Shown: one piece after another, positions 56,716 to 64,000 of the stretch
Position numbering within the stretch: the stretch's first letter is position 1
Layout of the letters: every line of letters begins with the position of its first letter
Source: Devosia sp. SL43
GTDB lineage: Bacteria > Pseudomonadota > Alphaproteobacteria > Rhizobiales > Devosiaceae
Direction: 5' to 3'
NCBI RefSeq assembly: GCF_021729885.1
Contig: NZ_CP063401.1
Coordinates: 3,836,501 to 3,900,500 of the forward strand
DNA: 64,000 nt
Translations under genes and position numbers: made by a program
Notes under the pieces: generated by a model
Database searches by the model: none
What the model was told of the DNA's origin: nothing
What the model saw: the letters and a program-made list of their open reading frames with translations, nothing else

Positions 56716-57846
56716 TTACTGCGGCGGCGGACCAAGCGTTGCGAGGATCGCCCGGCCTATTGCCGCATTGCCATAGGGCCAGCACAGCCAGAAGTTCATG
56801 TCGTATTGCGGCGGCAAGGCGAGCTGGCGCAGGTCGCTGCGGATACGTGTTACCGATGCCTGGGGCAACACGGAGACGAAGCCGTGATGCAGGACGAGAT
56901 TGAGGATGACCGGGATGGAGTCGATCTCGATCAGCCTGATGGCGCTGCGCTCGGTCTCGTTGAGGTGCTCATCGAGAATGCGATTGATGCGCTGCCGCAA
57001 TCCGCTGCGTGGGCTCGGTACCGCCAGCGGCGCCGTCAGGAGCGCATCGGCAATGCTGTGATAGCCTTCGGCAACGCCGACGACGGCGAGCGGCGTGCGG
57101 CCCACGATCTCGCCCTCCAGGTCGGGTGGCAGGCGCTCGGTGTCGAGGAAGGCAACGTCGAACAACCCGGTCTTGAGCCCCGCCAGTAAATCTTCTGCTG
57201 TGGTGGAACTGACAAACAGCGGCGCGCGTGGCCGCTCGGCCAGCCAACGGGCTGTGAGATTGGCGAGGAGGCGCGCGATCTCGCTTTCATAGCCCAACGG
57301 AATGATTGAGCCGAGCCGTGCCGTGGCCGCCGTCTTGCGAAACCGTTCCTCAGACGCCCCTGATAGCCGCCGCCACGCCGCCAGCAGCGCGTCCGCTGCG
57401 ACAGCAATGCGCGCTCCCTCGGGTGTGACGCTGGAGCCGCCGCTGCCGCGTTGCAACAGTGAACAACCCAGGCTGGCTTCGAGCTGTGCAATCTGCCGGG
57501 TCAATTGCGGTTGGCCCAGACCCATGCTGCGAGCGGCGCGGCGGATGCTGCCCAGGTTGGCGACCGACGAGAAGCGTTCGAGCGCGTCGAGCTTGATGGC
57601 GTGGATTGGCGAGATTGCACGAGCCAATGCGGCGGCTGCGGTGATTTCGGGTTCAAGCCGAACGGCTTCGAGACTGGCAACGAGTCCGGAGCCAGCGCGT
57701 TCAACAAGGTGGATCGATATTTCGGCCTCGAACCGCGCGATAGATGCGGCAATGGTGGAGGCGGGTCGGCCCAGCAGGCGGGCGGCCCCGCGCACACTGC
57801 GTTCCGAGAGCACCGCGTCGATTGCAATCAGCGTCGCCGTATCCAT
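56716..57846 (-). CDS. LysR-type regulator with two tandem HTH domains
   Basis: A 376-residue regulator, about 75 residues longer than usual. The first HTH (about residues 1-65) reads SVRGAARLLGRPASTIAASI, then ARFEAEISIHLVERAGSG. The second (about residues 80-145) reads GSIRRAARSMGLGQPQLTRQ, then IAQLEASLGCSLLQRGSGG, closer to the canonical form. The effector domain follows with GSIIPLGYESEIARLL and FDVAFLDTERL. It is divergent from the HAL-like gene and probably controls it; the gap holds a perfect palindrome. Start MDTATLIAI at 57846; the 12-codon extension to 57882 is weaker. Confidence 0.88.
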   Translation of the reverse strand: MDTATLIAIDAVLSERSVRGAARLLGRPASTIAASIARFEAEISIHLVERAGSGLVASLEAVRLEPEITAAAALARAISPIHAIKLDALERFSSVANLGSIRRAARSMGLGQPQLTRQIAQLEASLGCSLLQRGSGGSSVTPEGARIAVAADALLAAWRRLSGASEERFRKTAATARLGSIIPLGYESEIARLLANLTARWLAERPRAPLFVSSTTAEDLLAGLKTGLFDVAFLDTERLPPDLEGEIVGRTPLAVVGVAEGYHSIADALLTAPLAVPSPRSGLRQRINRILDEHLNETERSAIRLIEIDSIPVILNLVLHHGFVSVLPQASVTRIRSDLRQLALPPQYDMNFWLCWPYGNAAIGRAILATLGPPPQ

Positions 57847-57908
57847 GTGCCCGCCATTCGAGCAGGCGTCCTGGATGCACACGAAAACCGCATCGCCTGT
57901 TCATCATT

Positions 57909-57951: not shown

Positions 57952-59511
57952 ATGAACGATCTGGCGATGACAGTGCGCGGCGCTCCCATCACCCTCAATG
58001 GCAAGCCGTTGAGCTTCTCGGACATTGCCCGGATCGGCCGTCGCAAGGTTCGGCTGGTGGCTGATCCTGACGCCATGGTCCGCGTCGCCAATGCGCGCGC
58101 CGTCATCGAAGAGGCCATCGCCAACCACCAGCCCGTCTATGGCTCGACCACTGGAGTGGGCGCCATGAAGGACGTCGAGTGGACGGATGACCAGCTCGAC
58201 ACCTTCAACATGGGTCTGGTGCGAGCACACCATTTCGGCACCGGCGAAGCCTTTTCCAGCGAGATCATCCGCACGGCGATGGCCATTCGCGTCAACATGG
58301 CGCTGACGGGGCGTGTGGGTTGCACCACCGACCTGGTCGAAGCCTATCTGGCGCTACTGTCAGCCGACGTCGTGCCTGTCGTGCGGCGCACTGGCTCCAT
58401 CGGGTGCGCCGATATCGGCTTGATGGGCCAGATTGGCGCAGTGTTGACCGGGGCGGGCGAGGCCGTTTTCAGCGGCAAGCGCCAGCCCGCGGCAGATGCG
58501 CTGGCCTCGGCTGGCCTCAAGGCCTTCCGCCTGGCGCCGCGCGATAGCCTGGCTTCGATATCCACCAACGCAGTGGGCTATGCCGCCGCAGCCGCCGCCA
58601 TTCGCGATGCAGCTGGCGCGGTGCGCGTCATGCTGGCAACGGGTCTGACCACGGCTGGCGCCCTCGGCGCTTCGCGCGATCCGTGGAAGGCCGTGGCCCA
58701 TGTCGGCACTGAGCGCGAAGCCGGCATCGGTGCGTGGCTCTATTTCAACGCCAAGGGCTGGGACTGGCCCAACGCCACCCATATCCAGGATCCGCTGTCG
58801 CTGCGCATGATGAGCCAGGTGTTTGCCACCGGCTTCGAGACGCTGGTGGCAGCAGGCAAGATTCTGTTGGCCGCCACCGGGCGGACCGACGACAATCCTG
58901 TGGTCGCGGGAGGACAGGTTTTGACGTCGGGTGGCTCGCTGCCGCTCGACGTCACCGTCTTCCTGCAGACCGCACAACTGGGCCTGGCCCATATCGCCCG
59001 CAACTCGTTCAACCGCTGTGTGCTGCTCGGCAATGGCCAGCGGCGCGATTTGCCGGTCAACCTGGTCCAGCCGGGCGCGATTGCGACCGGCTTCGGCCCG
59101 ATCATCAAGCTGGCCGGCGAACTCTTCGCCCGCGTGCTGACCATGACCAATCCGATCTCGGCAAATTCCATGGTCGTCGCCGGCGGCCTGGAGGACGAGG
59201 CAACGTTCCTGCCGCTGGTGGTCGAGCGACTGGAACGCCAGGTGCTTGCCCTGCGGCGCCTGGCAGCACTCGAAGCCATGCTCGCCGCGCAGGCGATGGA
59301 CATATCTGGTGACCGGCCGGGTAACGTCCCCGGCATCATCTACGAATTGGTTCGGCGACATGCTGACACGTACTGGCAGGATCGCCCTCTATCGACCGAA
59401 GTCGAGGCGATCGAAGACGCTCTGGGCTCAGAAGAGCTTATGAGCGAACTAATATCCCACTCAACGATTATGGAGTTGGACGAGTTTTTCGCCTTGGGTC
59501 CGGTTGCCTAG
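57952..59511 (+). CDS. HAL/PAL-superfamily lyase lacking the MIO triad
   Basis: A 519-residue homologue of histidine ammonia-lyase. Family blocks remain: PVYGSTTGVGAMKD (HAL YGxNTGFG), RAHHFGTGE, LASISTNAVG, HIQDPLSLRMMSQV (HAL QDPYSLR) and DDNPVV. The cofactor-forming Ala-Ser-Gly is replaced by Cys-Ala-Asp at residues 152-154 (GSIGCADIG), and the Tyr of QDPYSLR is Leu. It therefore probably cannot form MIO. MIO-free members such as ergothionase eliminate trimethylamine from ergothioneine by acid-base chemistry. The downstream betaine-type transporter fits a similar substrate. Ordinary histidase is unlikely. The exact substrate is inferred. Confidence 0.85.
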   Translation: MNDLAMTVRGAPITLNGKPLSFSDIARIGRRKVRLVADPDAMVRVANARAVIEEAIANHQPVYGSTTGVGAMKDVEWTDDQLDTFNMGLVRAHHFGTGEAFSSEIIRTAMAIRVNMALTGRVGCTTDLVEAYLALLSADVVPVVRRTGSIGCADIGLMGQIGAVLTGAGEAVFSGKRQPAADALASAGLKAFRLAPRDSLASISTNAVGYAAAAAAIRDAAGAVRVMLATGLTTAGALGASRDPWKAVAHVGTEREAGIGAWLYFNAKGWDWPNATHIQDPLSLRMMSQVFATGFETLVAAGKILLAATGRTDDNPVVAGGQVLTSGGSLPLDVTVFLQTAQLGLAHIARNSFNRCVLLGNGQRRDLPVNLVQPGAIATGFGPIIKLAGELFARVLTMTNPISANSMVVAGGLEDEATFLPLVVERLERQVLALRRLAALEAMLAAQAMDISGDRPGNVPGIIYELVRRHADTYWQDRPLSTEVEAIEDALGSEELMSELISHSTIMELDEFFALGPVA

Positions 59512-59595: not shown

Positions 59596-60507
59596 ATGCG
59601 CCTCACTACCAAGCTTCTGAGCGCTGTTGCAGCGCTCGCCATCACGGTGACTGCGGCCCAGGCTCAGGTCGTCGTGTCCTCCAAGATCGACACCGAGGGT
59701 GGCGTTCTTGGCAACATCATCAAGCAGGTGCTGGAAGCCAACGACATCCCGGTGGAAGATCGCATCCAGCTCGGCGGCACGCCGATCGTGCGCGAAGCCA
59801 TCATGGCCGGCGAAATCGACATCTATCCCGAATATACCGGCAACGCCGCCTTCTTCTTCGAGAAGGCCGATGACCCGCTGTGGAACAACGCTGAATCGGC
59901 CTATGCCGAGGCCGCCAAGCTCGACTACGACGCCAACAAGATCATCTGGTTGTCGCCGTCGCCGGCCAACAACACCTGGGCCGTCGCCGTCCGCAACGAC
60001 GTGGCCGAAGCCAACAGCCTCAACACCTTCACCGAATTCGGTGCCTGGGTCGCCGGCGGTGGCGAAGTCAAGCTTGCGGCATCGGCAGAGTTCGTGAATT
60101 CGCCCGCCGCCTTGCCCAAGTTCCAGGAAGTCTATGGCTTCACCCTGACTCCCGATCAGCTCGTGACTCTCTCGGGTGGTGATACGGCCGCGACGATTGC
60201 CGCCGCCGCCCAGCAGACCAACGGCGTCAACGCCGCCATGGTCTATGGCACCGATGGTGGCATTGCTCCCTCGGGTCTCAAGGTGCTCGAGGACGACAAG
60301 GGCGTGCAGCCGGTTTACCAGCCTGCGCCGATCATCCGCGAAGCCGTGCTGACCGAATATCCGCAGATCGAAGAACTGCTCAAGCCCGTGTTCGAAGGCC
60401 TGACCATCGAAGTGCTGCAGGACCTCAATGGTCGTGTTCAGGTCGGTGGCGAAGCCGCTGCGGCCGTTGCGACCGACTACCTGACCAAGGGCGGTTTCCT
60501 GGACTAA
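59596..60507 (+). CDS. Glycine-betaine/quaternary-amine-type binding protein (OsmF/OpuC-like)
   Basis: Periplasmic binding protein of 303 residues. The signal peptide is residues 1-23 (ending AAQAQ). The mature opening VVVSSKIDTEGGVLGNIIKQ and REAIMAGEIDIYPEYTGNAA are the OpuAC/OsmF (YehZ) hallmarks. It starts MRLTTKLLSAV with CGGAGAAA upstream. It follows the HAL-like gene by 84 bases. The family binds quaternary amines, and ergothioneine receptors such as EgtU are of this family. The true ligand is unknown. A family C repeat lies after it. Confidence 0.9.
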   Translation: MRLTTKLLSAVAALAITVTAAQAQVVVSSKIDTEGGVLGNIIKQVLEANDIPVEDRIQLGGTPIVREAIMAGEIDIYPEYTGNAAFFFEKADDPLWNNAESAYAEAAKLDYDANKIIWLSPSPANNTWAVAVRNDVAEANSLNTFTEFGAWVAGGGEVKLAASAEFVNSPAALPKFQEVYGFTLTPDQLVTLSGGDTAATIAAAAQQTNGVNAAMVYGTDGGIAPSGLKVLEDDKGVQPVYQPAPIIREAVLTEYPQIEELLKPVFEGLTIEVLQDLNGRVQVGGEAAAAVATDYLTKGGFLD

Positions 60508-60710: not shown

Positions 60711-61904
60711 ATGAGCATCGCCGACACCGCCATCGCCGATAGCCGACCCGCCTGGCTCGCGCTCGACAAGCTCGGCGTGCTGATTGCGCTCATTGCAGCG
60801 GCCGGTGCGGTGCTACCCTTCGCCCTGTTCCGCGCCAATCGCATCGTGCTGGGCGAACCGAAGTCCCTGCTGGATGCGCTGCCCAGTGTCTCATCCGGAC
60901 TTCTCATCGGCATCCTGCTGGTCGGCTTCGTGATTGCGCTGTTGCGCTTTCCGGTAGTCGTCAAGCTGATTGCCGGCTTCCTGGTGCTCGCGGCCCTATT
61001 TATCCTTATCGGCTGGTCGGGCAGCTATCTGACGCCGGAGGACGACACGTTTGCCCGTGTCTCACCCGGTGCTGGCTTCTGGCTGCTGGTCTTTGCCTTT
61101 GCTCTGTTGGTGACCGATGCACTGACGCGGCTACGCCTGGCGCCGCTGGCGCGCATTGGCATCCTCCTTGCCGTTGCCTTGGCAATGGCTGCGCTGTTGT
61201 GGAGTGGCGGCTGGAACAATCTCTCCATCCTCAAGGAATACGCCACCCGGGCGCCCGCTTTCTGGGCCGAGGGTCGGACGCATCTTGCGCTGGCCTTCGG
61301 TTCGGTGGCCGTTGCGACGGTGGTTGGCGTGCCGGTGGGCGTGCTGTGCTACAAGGTCGGGCCGCTGCGAGCCGGCGTGCTGAACGTTCTCAATATCGTC
61401 CAGACCATTCCGTCGATCGCCCTGTTCGGCCTGCTGATCGCGCCACTGGCATGGGTTGCCGCCAACATTCCTGGCGCCTCCGCCATCGGTATTTCCGGAA
61501 TCGGGGCTGCGCCGGCTTTGGTCGCTCTATTCGCCTATTCGCTGCTGCCCATCGTCTCCAACACGGTGGTCGGCCTGCTGAGCGTATCGCCCGCTGCCGT
61601 CGACGCGGCGAAGGGCATGGGCATGACCGGCGCGCAGCGCTTGACCGGCGTCGAGCTGCCGCTGGCCTTTCCCGTGATCCTCACCGGTATCCGCATCGTG
61701 CTGGTGCAGAATATCGGGCTGGCCACCATCGCCGCGCTGATCGGCGGCGGCGGGTTTGGCGTCTTCGTGTTCCAGGGTATCGGACAAACGGCGATGGATC
61801 TGGTGTTGCTCGGCGCAGTACCGACCGTGGCTTTGGCCTTTGTCGCCGCCGTGGTGCTCGACGCCATCGTTGAAATGACGTCACGCGGGGGACGCCGCCC
61901 ATGA
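60711..61904 (+). CDS. Quaternary-amine ABC transporter permease (YehY-like)
   Basis: Inner-membrane permease, 397 residues, from ATG 60711. The first half has five to six helices of an extra membrane region, as in YehY, and the second half is the BPD permease core with VVGVPVGVLCYKVGPLR, the EAA loop VDAAKGMGMTGAQRLTGVELP and NIGLATIAALIGGGGFGVFV. It overlaps the ATPase gene by ATGA. The order binding protein, permease, ATPase, permease matches that of osmF-type (yeh) operons in rearranged form. Confidence 0.9.
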   Translation: MSIADTAIADSRPAWLALDKLGVLIALIAAAGAVLPFALFRANRIVLGEPKSLLDALPSVSSGLLIGILLVGFVIALLRFPVVVKLIAGFLVLAALFILIGWSGSYLTPEDDTFARVSPGAGFWLLVFAFALLVTDALTRLRLAPLARIGILLAVALAMAALLWSGGWNNLSILKEYATRAPAFWAEGRTHLALAFGSVAVATVVGVPVGVLCYKVGPLRAGVLNVLNIVQTIPSIALFGLLIAPLAWVAANIPGASAIGISGIGAAPALVALFAYSLLPIVSNTVVGLLSVSPAAVDAAKGMGMTGAQRLTGVELPLAFPVILTGIRIVLVQNIGLATIAALIGGGGFGVFVFQGIGQTAMDLVLLGAVPTVALAFVAAVVLDAIVEMTSRGGRRP

Positions 61905-62836
61905 TCGAGATCGACTACATCACCAAGACCTACGATGCGACAACGGTCGTCGATCATGTGACGCTGACCATCCAGCCACGCAGCATCTGCGTCATCGTGG
62001 GCACGTCGGGTTCCGGCAAGACCACGCTGATGCGGATGATCAACAAGCTGGTGGAGCCGACGTCCGGCCATATCCGCATCGATGGCGAGGATATCGCGGG
62101 CATCCCCGCCTATGAGCTGCGCCGCCGGATCGGTTATGCCATCCAGGGACATGGGCTGTTTCCGCACCGGACCGTCGGGCAGAATGTGGCGACGGTGCCC
62201 AAGCTGCTCGGCTGGGACAAGGCCAGGACGGCCAGCCGGGTCGATGAACTGCTGAGCCTGTTTCAGCTCGACCCCGGCCAGTTCCGCGATCGCATGCCGC
62301 ATGAATTGAGCGGCGGGCAGCAGCAGCGCGTGGGCGTGGCGCGGGCGCTGGCGGCGGAGCCCAATATTCTCCTCATGGATGAGCCTTATGGTGCACTCGA
62401 TCCGGTGATCCGGGCGAAGGCGCAGGAAGACCTGCTCGCCATCCAGCGCAAGTTTGGCACCACGATCGTACTGGTCACCCATGACATGGAAGAGGCCATC
62501 CATCTTGGCGACACGATCGCCGTGATGGACAAGGGCAAGCTGCTGCAATGCGCCAGGCCTGCAGAGATCATTGCCAATCCGGCGACGCCGTTTGTGGCGG
62601 AGCTGATCGGCACCAGCGAGCGGCCGTTCCGGCTGCTGTCGCTGGCGCGGGTCTCCGACCATGTCGAACCTGGTGAGGTGGCGGGCGAGCCCATCGAGGC
62701 CAGTGCCTCGCTGCGGGATGCCTATGCCGAACTGCTGTGGTCGGGTCGGCCGGCTTTGCCGGTGCGGCGCGACGGCCAGATCGTGGGGCAGATTACCCTG
62801 GCCGCGCTATCGCAGTTGGCGGCGCGGCCGCGATGA
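61901..62836 (+). CDS. Quaternary-amine ABC transporter ATP-binding protein (YehX/OpuCA-like)
   Basis: A 311-residue ATPase. GTSGSGKTT is at about residues 36-44, [16 protein letters not shown] near 135 and ILLMDEPYGALD follows. The C-terminal tail from about residue 240 (PIEASASLRDAY, then LPVRRDGQIVGQITLAAL) looks like a single shortened CBS-type module, found in betaine ATPases. The stop overlaps the next permease by ATGA. Confidence 0.92.
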   Translation: MIEIDYITKTYDATTVVDHVTLTIQPRSICVIVGTSGSGKTTLMRMINKLVEPTSGHIRIDGEDIAGIPAYELRRRIGYAIQGHGLFPHRTVGQNVATVPKLLGWDKARTASRVDELLSLFQLDPGQFRDRMPHELSGGQQQRVGVARALAAEPNILLMDEPYGALDPVIRAKAQEDLLAIQRKFGTTIVLVTHDMEEAIHLGDTIAVMDKGKLLQCARPAEIIANPATPFVAELIGTSERPFRLLSLARVSDHVEPGEVAGEPIEASASLRDAYAELLWSGRPALPVRRDGQIVGQITLAALSQLAARPR

Positions 62837-63585
62837 GCGTTGGCAATATAATCAGGCTGATCGCCTTTACGGTGCTGGTGCTGTTCCTCGTCAAGCCGGA
62901 CGTGTTCAGCGGGTTCTTTGGTGTATTCACAAAGAACAATCAGCCGGCAATCTACAATCAGGGCAGTCTGCTCGATATCACGCTCAATCACCTCGGCATC
63001 GTATTGGTCGCCACACTGGCCTCCACGATCATTGCCGTGGGGTTGGCGATCATCGTCACGCGGCCGTTTGGTGCGGAGTTCCTGCCGCTGTCGCGTTCCC
63101 TCGCCAATGTGGGGCAGACCTTGCCGCCGGTTGCCGTGCTGGCACTGGCCGTGCCTGTGCTTGGATTTGGCACGGCGCCGACGCTGGTGGCGCTGTTTCT
63201 CTATGGGCTGCTGCCGATTTTCGAGAACACGCTGACGGGCCTCACCAACCTGCCACCCGCGGTGACCGATGCCGCCAAGGGCGTCGGCATGACGGGGTGG
63301 CAGCTGCTGGTCAAGGTTGAGTTGCCGCTGGCTCTGCCGGTGATCCTGGCCGGCGTGCGGCTATCGACGGTGATTTCGCTGGCGACGGCGACTATTGGCT
63401 CCACCGTTGCGGCCCGGACGCTGGGCGAGGTGATCATCGCCGGGCTGCTGTCGAGCAACACGGCCTTGGTGCTGCAGGGCGGGCTGATCGTCGGCGTGCT
63501 GGCCGTGCTGATCTATGACGCGCTCTCGGCGCTGGAGCGGTGGCTGATGGCGCGTACGGGGCAATTGGGGAGGGCGGCGGGGTGA
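62833..63585 (+). CDS. Quaternary-amine ABC transporter permease 2 (YehW-like)
   Basis: A 250-residue permease from ATG 62833, overlapping the ATPase stop. Six helices; core blocks are LATATIGSTVAARTLGEVII, the EAA loop VTDAAKGVGMTGWQLLVKVELPLALP and FGTAPTLVALFLYGLLPIF. It is followed by a family E repeat and then the amidohydrolase gene, probably still in the operon. Confidence 0.92.
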   Translation: MSVGNIIRLIAFTVLVLFLVKPDVFSGFFGVFTKNNQPAIYNQGSLLDITLNHLGIVLVATLASTIIAVGLAIIVTRPFGAEFLPLSRSLANVGQTLPPVAVLALAVPVLGFGTAPTLVALFLYGLLPIFENTLTGLTNLPPAVTDAAKGVGMTGWQLLVKVELPLALPVILAGVRLSTVISLATATIGSTVAARTLGEVIIAGLLSSNTALVLQGGLIVGVLAVLIYDALSALERWLMARTGQLGRAAG

Positions 63586-63747: not shown

Positions 63748-64000
63748 ATGTCCGATTTTGATCTCGTCCTCTCCGGCACCGTGGTGCTGCCGTCGTCCAT
63801 CGTCAAAGACGGCTATGTCGCGGTGCGCGATGGCAAGGTCGTGCATGTTGGCGAGGGCAGGGCGCCGTCGGCGAAGACCCGCCATGAGCTGGGCAATGCC
63901 CTGATCCTGCCCGGCGCCATCGATGCGCAGACGCATTCGCTGAGCCAGAAGGACCAGGAAGACTTCATCTGGTCGACGCGGTCGGCGGCGGCAGGTGGCG
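63748..64000 (+). CDS. Amidohydrolase of the hydantoinase/allantoinase/dihydroorotase group (3' end outside window)
   Basis: Only the first 84 codons are visible. LVLSGTVVLPSSIVKDGYVA, then VRDGKVVHVGEG and GNALILPGAIDA, is the standard opening of cyclic amidohydrolases. The usual D-x-H-x-H metal motif reads DAQTH here, so the first His is Gln. SLSQKDQEDFIWSTRSAAAG follows, as in allantoinase-like proteins. AAGGAAAC precedes the ATG. Its place after the betaine transporter suggests a role in breaking a cyclic amide such as a hydantoin derived from the imported compound. Confidence 0.85.
   Translation, partial: MSDFDLVLSGTVVLPSSIVKDGYVAVRDGKVVHVGEGRAPSAKTRHELGNALILPGAIDAQTHSLSQKDQEDFIWSTRSAAAGG

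Follow-up and report, generated by a model that had tools for sequence, protein, structure and literature searches.

In histidine ammonia-lyase (HutH; TIGR01225, PDB 1gkj and 1b8f) the MIO ring, which forms from an Ala-Ser-Gly triad, activates a poor leaving group, ammonia, whereas the trimethylamine that a betaine releases departs easily without such help. The bacterial pathway from ergothioneine to glutamate is represented by NCBIfam models for the four enzymes that act downstream of the lyase (NF058529, NF058530, NF058538 and NF058540). Structures of the lyase itself, ergothionase, are available from Treponema denticola (PDB 6s7j and 6s7q), and PMC13405746 states that ergothionase lacks MIO and names a Burkholderia ergothionase sequence (accession BAM63550). 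Here we describe a gene in a 64,000-nucleotide stretch of the Devosia sp. SL43 genome (the window) that very probably encodes an ergothionase, predicted to have the histidase fold and to work without the MIO cofactor. This reading draws on the shortened loop, on kinship with ergothionase and on the identity and co-occurrence of the genes nearby. The protein is most likely not an odd histidine-degrading enzyme; instead it would be the ergothionase of an ergothioneine-to-glutamate cluster that is widespread in Devosia.

Family, fold and the loop at the MIO site

The features of the lyase gene considered here are as follows.

57952-59511, plus strand: lyase ORF, 519 amino acids, HAL/PAL family PF00221 (281 bits; top PDB match 6s7j)
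58393-58413, plus strand: GSIGCAD (residues 148-154), the shortened MIO loop, which has one residue fewer than GSVGASGD of HAL
58786-58806, plus strand: QDPLSLR, residues 279-285, with Leu282 in place of Tyr280 of HAL (sequence and alignment)

The PF00221 match spans residues 20-468, far exceeds the cut-off of 27.3 bits and is the only one in the genome; together with the fold matches to 6s7j it places the lyase in the HAL/PAL superfamily. The protein shares its fold and many framework residues with HutH, but it lacks an intact MIO triad and scores 211.5 bits against the HutH equivalog model TIGR01225, where the cut-off is 539.15, so that it falls outside HutH on both counts. Among the NCBIfam profiles the lyase matched no ergothionase model. 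The best solved chain by sequence is the T. denticola ergothionase 6s7j (180.7 bits), ahead of the best histidase, 1gkj (134.2 bits), at an identity to the lyase of 27-28%. An AlphaFold2 model based on 24 sequences of the Devosia group (mean pLDDT 78, pTM 0.85) gave the same ranking in Foldseek: the top matches were three 6s7j chains (query-normalised TM 0.83-0.84, target-normalised TM 0.86-0.88, best E 2.8e-25), followed by histidase chains (query-normalised TM 0.79-0.81, E no better than 3.8e-24), a small lead because the fold is common to both enzymes. The original prediction had proposed overlaying a predicted structure on histidase and ergothionase; the fold is indeed kept, and ergothionase was the right comparison, being closest by both sequence and fold. 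As pLDDT is moderate in the loop (means of 72 for residues 141-150 and 60 for 151-160) and below 50 at residues 65-72 and 403-417, the model is silent on pocket geometry.

It had also been claimed that the Ala-Ser-Gly triad is replaced by Cys-Ala-Asp. Positions 58393-58413 do encode Gly148-Ser-Ile-Gly-Cys152-Ala153-Asp154 exactly, and the canonical triad is absent, the loop being one residue short in all alignments made; no Ala-Ser-Gly triad was seen elsewhere when the translation was read by eye. The proposed substitution, by contrast, does not hold. Against 30 of 30 full-loop sequences the ungapped register that sets Cys152-Ala153-Asp154 opposite Ala-Ser-Gly is beaten by a one-residue deletion, with mean BLOSUM62 scores over the 25 residues after the loop of -35.2 and +36.5, respectively, and this rules out the substituted triad. 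Asp154 is therefore not the third triad member; it corresponds to Asp145 of HAL, the Asp that follows the triad, and is identical in all 92 aligned rows. With the T. denticola ergothionase the best fit over the same 25 residues is ungapped (31, against -28 when shifted), and the lyase loop, devoid of a MIO-forming triad, is of the 6s7j kind. When the lyase is aligned to histidases the missing residue falls between Gly151 and Asp154, and programs disagree on the gap column (HAL numbering), phmmer placing it at Gly144, MAFFT at Ser143 and an HMM of the full-loop sequences at Ala142, which puts Cys152 opposite Ser143. Naming one triad residue as missing is thus arbitrary, and the more cautious statement is that one of the three is absent.

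Residues and relationships of the short-loop lyases

A MAFFT alignment of 92 rows was built from 107 extracted relatives, with L003 as the query row, and two sequences from the PDB; 14 duplicates, the two partial genes L065 and L067 and the faulty extraction L098 were excluded. The loops are short in 62 rows and full in 30 (27 Ala-Ser-Gly and 3 Ala-Cys-Gly); because the rows lean heavily on Devosia, these and the following residue counts are not numbers of independent events. In three of the full loops (GSVGACGDL; L074, L080 and L081) the triad is naturally Ala-Cys-Gly; these sequences have RDALS or RDGLS for QDPYS and form one branch.

The Tyr of QDPYSLR had been reported as Leu, and this is borne out by Leu282. 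At this position the short-loop rows have Leu (60) or Ile (2), while the full-loop rows have Tyr (26), Leu (3) or Phe (1), the lone Phe belonging to chain 1gkj, a Y280F mutant. In all 62 short-loop rows, that of T. denticola among them, residue 386 is Lys, and none of the 30 full-loop rows has Lys there (Val in 27, Tyr in 3). Tyr63 and Glu414 are each kept in 92 of 92 rows, and Tyr63, Arg285, Asn315 and Glu414, which we take to match the catalytic residues of histidase, are all kept in the 62 short-loop rows. The T. denticola enzyme accordingly resembles the lyase in its one-residue-short loop (SSIGEGDI compared with GSIGCADI), its QDPLS motif, its Lys at position 386 and its equivalents of Tyr63 and Glu414. 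The pair differ on the pocket side at Cys152/Glu142, Ala153/Gly143, Thr67/Arg57 and Ser329/Phe326 (lyase/T. denticola, printed PDB numbering). Ergothionase and the 62 short-loop rows have in common both the short loop and the loss of the Tyr, so that these features, judged by sequence, identify a known MIO-free kind and do not set this gene apart.

Residue 152 is more variable. It is Cys in 40, Ala in 13, Thr in 8 and Glu in 1 of the short-loop rows; the 48 rows of the lyase clade (at least 36% identity, query included) account, by subtraction, for the Cys (40) and Thr (8), and the 14 distant rows for the Ala (13) and the Glu of T. denticola. The presence of Thr in 8 rows, and of Ala or Glu in 14, weakens a reading in which Cys152 is catalytic. 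In a quick, unrooted tree in which long branches were flagged, a single branch parts short-loop from full-loop rows (SH-aLRT 100), and the 48-row clade is parted with the same support from T. denticola, the other short-loop rows and the histidases. The T. denticola and Devosia lyases are not joined as one clade in this tree, whose long branches and undefined root apply here too. The lyase scores 341 bits by an HMM of the 14 distant short-loop proteins (T. denticola included) versus 235 bits by an HMM of the 30 full-loop proteins. It is conceivable, if doubtful, that the lyases of alphaproteobacterial ergothioneine clusters are a lineage distinct from T. denticola in which Cys or Thr152 at the MIO site, standing in place of the Glu of the T. 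denticola enzyme, binds or activates the thione directly.

The neighbouring genes and their co-occurrence with the lyase

The genes around the lyase are listed below; a window position equals the L002 position plus 56499.

56716-57882, minus strand: LysR-type regulator (HTH_1 and LysR_substrate profile matches), divergent, upstream of the lyase; putative cluster role by position
59596-60507, plus strand: OsmF-type betaine-binding protein of an ABC transporter (NF049931, 492 bits, cut-off 400; OpuAC)
60711-61904, plus strand: ABC transporter permease, putative start at the ATG of MSIADTA
61901-62836, plus strand: ABC transporter ATPase, closest to proV among the NCBIfam models (280 bits, short of the cut-off of 326.6)
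62833-63585, plus strand: second ABC transporter permease, putative start at the ATG of MSVGNII
63748-64000, plus strand: start of ErtD, hydantoin-5-propionate amidohydrolase, running past the window end (L002:7249-8607; 776.7 bits, cut-off 600)
About L002:8604-9857, outside the window, plus strand: ErtE, N-carbamyl-L-glutamate amidohydrolase (595.1 bits, cut-off 520)
L002:9857-10951, outside the window, plus strand: thiohydantoin desulfurase (585.8 bits, cut-off 440)
About L002:11074-12735, outside the window, plus strand: thiourocanate hydratase (1045.3 bits, cut-off 930)

The order on the lyase strand is thus lyase, OsmF-type binding protein, permease, ATPase, permease, ErtD, ErtE, desulfurase and hydratase. 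The four downstream enzymes of the described pathway are thus encoded close to the lyase, and all four exceed their curated equivalog cut-offs in an arrangement that recurs in the named loci. The cluster additionally has the linked betaine transporter, the OsmF model being named for glycine betaine and not for ergothioneine, and the divergent LysR gene. The link of this regulator to the cluster is loose, since only 9 of the 35 named loci have a related gene upstream of the lyase at the threshold used. The hydratase also exceeds the general HutU cut-off (687.3 bits, cut-off 375). Apart from those of six genomes, the other urocanases of a 398-genome phylum sample score no higher than 720 bits with the thiourocanate model and so miss its cut-off.

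A role in the Hut pathway is argued against by the genome itself, which has a single PF00221 match, no HutI above cut-off among 10 matches and no second full-length urocanase. The second urocanase match (L194, at G000:C1:3235087-3235455, outside the window) is a C-terminal fragment (123 positions, 221 bits) encoded by a 133-amino-acid open frame, perhaps the remnant of a lost hut operon.

Of 61 related genomes, 23 have a lyase at 60% identity or more, and precisely these 23 also have a thiourocanate hydratase above cut-off; by these thresholds the other 38 have neither. Both genes are present in 22 of 37 genomes of the genus, this one included, and are therefore widespread in Devosia and not universal. 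In 20 of those 23 genomes both are on a single contig, with starts up to about 10.3 kb apart, and in G029, G032 and G036 they are on different contigs. The binding-protein gene follows the lyase in 33 of 35 named loci; the exceptions are L049 (Pelagibacterium), which has no such gene there, and L065, where the sequence stops at the lyase. The desulfurase is present in 29 of 35, and the stretches of L036, L061, L062, L063 and L065 end before it. In Devosia epidermidihirudinis (L041) the lyase and transporter genes are followed by 3.7 kb containing no catabolic genes, and the cluster may be split. At three Devosia loci (L033, L047 and L067) ErtE comes after the transporter with no ErtD seen in between, and ErtD may be located elsewhere in these genomes.

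Within the phylum sample the hydratase exceeds its cut-off in six genomes, five of which have a lyase at 53% identity or more; in the sixth, G703, none was found in the cluster, at most three lyase candidates per genome being scored. The G703 stretch (L168, G703:C78:107500-127000) encodes ErtD (72% identity), desulfurase (77%), thiourocanate hydratase (79%) and an amino-acid-type ABC transporter; neither ErtE nor a lyase was found in it, and this organism might feed on thiourocanate made by others. In the class sample all three lyases from other genomes at 37% identity or more adjoin ergothioneine-type genes: all four catabolic genes and the transporter in G100, three and the transporter in G322, whose stretch ends before the hydratase, and the hydratase and desulfurase only in G075. 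Three plasmid-collection records (Ochrobactrum, Rhizobium and Shinella) contain lyase relatives at 53-65% identity.

Short-loop lyases of about 30% identity, which are probably other trimethylamine lyases, occur in different surroundings. The four catabolic genes were found around 0 of 11 such lyases, several of these loci being cut by contig ends. Ergothioneine genes are absent from the stretches around L071, L072, L073, L075, L076, L078, L085, L086 and L026 (wider stretches L172-L184), and L087-L090 are short-loop lyases of the same kind. Neighbours in four scanned loci include an aldehyde dehydrogenase (L174), a methyltransferase (L177), a glutaminase (L180) and an ornithine cyclodeaminase with a Rieske oxygenase (L183). 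One genome that also has the ergothioneine lyase (G668) encodes a second MIO-free lyase of about 31% identity (GSIGAADL, QDPLSYR). Around it, in L182:3089-14919, lie genes for a separate betaine ABC transporter, a repressor of the HutC type (277.3 bits against a cut-off of 220), a MaoC hydratase, an SDR and a CoA-transferase, together with an ornithine-cyclodeaminase-like gene. This set looks like a β-oxidation-like route for the acrylate left once trimethylamine leaves some other betaine.

Proposed pathway and competing readings

We infer the substrate, the order of the reactions and the specificity of the transporter. The betaine ABC transporter encoded next to the lyase would bring in ergothioneine, from which the lyase would eliminate trimethylamine to give thiourocanate. 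Thiourocanate would then be hydrated to a thiohydantoin, the sulfur of which would be replaced by oxygen to yield a hydantoin; opening of the hydantoin ring and subsequent removal of the carbamoyl group would leave glutamate. This five-step order is the one that we presume for the lyase and the four downstream enzymes. Since trimethylamine, unlike ammonia, leaves readily, the lyase would not need MIO, and a pocket containing Tyr63, Glu414 and Lys386, each in a putative role, could suffice.

Among the alternatives, the lyase might release trimethylamine from a sister compound, such as S-methyl-ergothioneine, hercynine or ergothioneine sulfonate, and not from ergothioneine. The short-loop lyases of about 30% identity in other gene contexts, and the difference from T. 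denticola at residue 152, fit such a substrate. The adjacent desulfurase and hydratase, however, score above the cut-offs for the ergothioneine-type enzymes and below those for the S-methyl versions (280.2 against 450 bits and 742.4 against 880 bits, respectively), while conversion of hercynine to urocanate would require HutI, which is not found above cut-off in the genome, and no desulfurase. We therefore regard a sister compound as very unlikely. Limited literature searches found nothing that joins hypaphorine with a lyase, degradation and trimethylamine, nothing linking Devosia with ergothioneine and, in the portions of the sources that were available, no work on the glutamate pathway under S-methyl thiohydantoin or ergothioneine-thiohydantoin.

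That the protein is instead a histidine ammonia-lyase, with a non-standard cofactor formed from Gly151-Cys152-Ala153 and Cys152 at the Ser143 position, is highly improbable. One of the three alignment methods does set Cys152 opposite Ser143, residue 152 is Cys or Thr throughout the 48-row clade, and a Ser-to-Cys change in histidase leaves the enzyme active. Yet the loop is short in each alignment, the 14 distant short-loop rows have Ala or Glu at residue 152, and the genome pairs a lack of HutI above cut-off and of a second full-length urocanase with a linked urocanase that passes the thiourocanate hydratase cut-off. Loss of the triad would by itself also fit a degenerate or non-catalytic HAL relative, a reading to which we give next to no credence: the lyase is 73-92% identical to 23 aligned Devosia-group proteins, the four catalytic-type residues are kept in all short-loop rows, and at most loci the gene is accompanied by the same set of genes. 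The original prediction, that this is a functional variant and not a decayed gene, looks right on sequence grounds, the frame being intact and relatives reaching 92% identity.

Identification of the lyase as an ergothionase would correct its likely annotation as a histidine or aromatic ammonia-lyase. The one-residue loop deletion combined with the conserved Lys offers an easy way to recognise, by sequence, MIO-free lyases that are annotated as histidases. Through the cluster, 22 of the 37 Devosia genomes would encode the release of trimethylamine from an antioxidant of fungi and actinobacteria.
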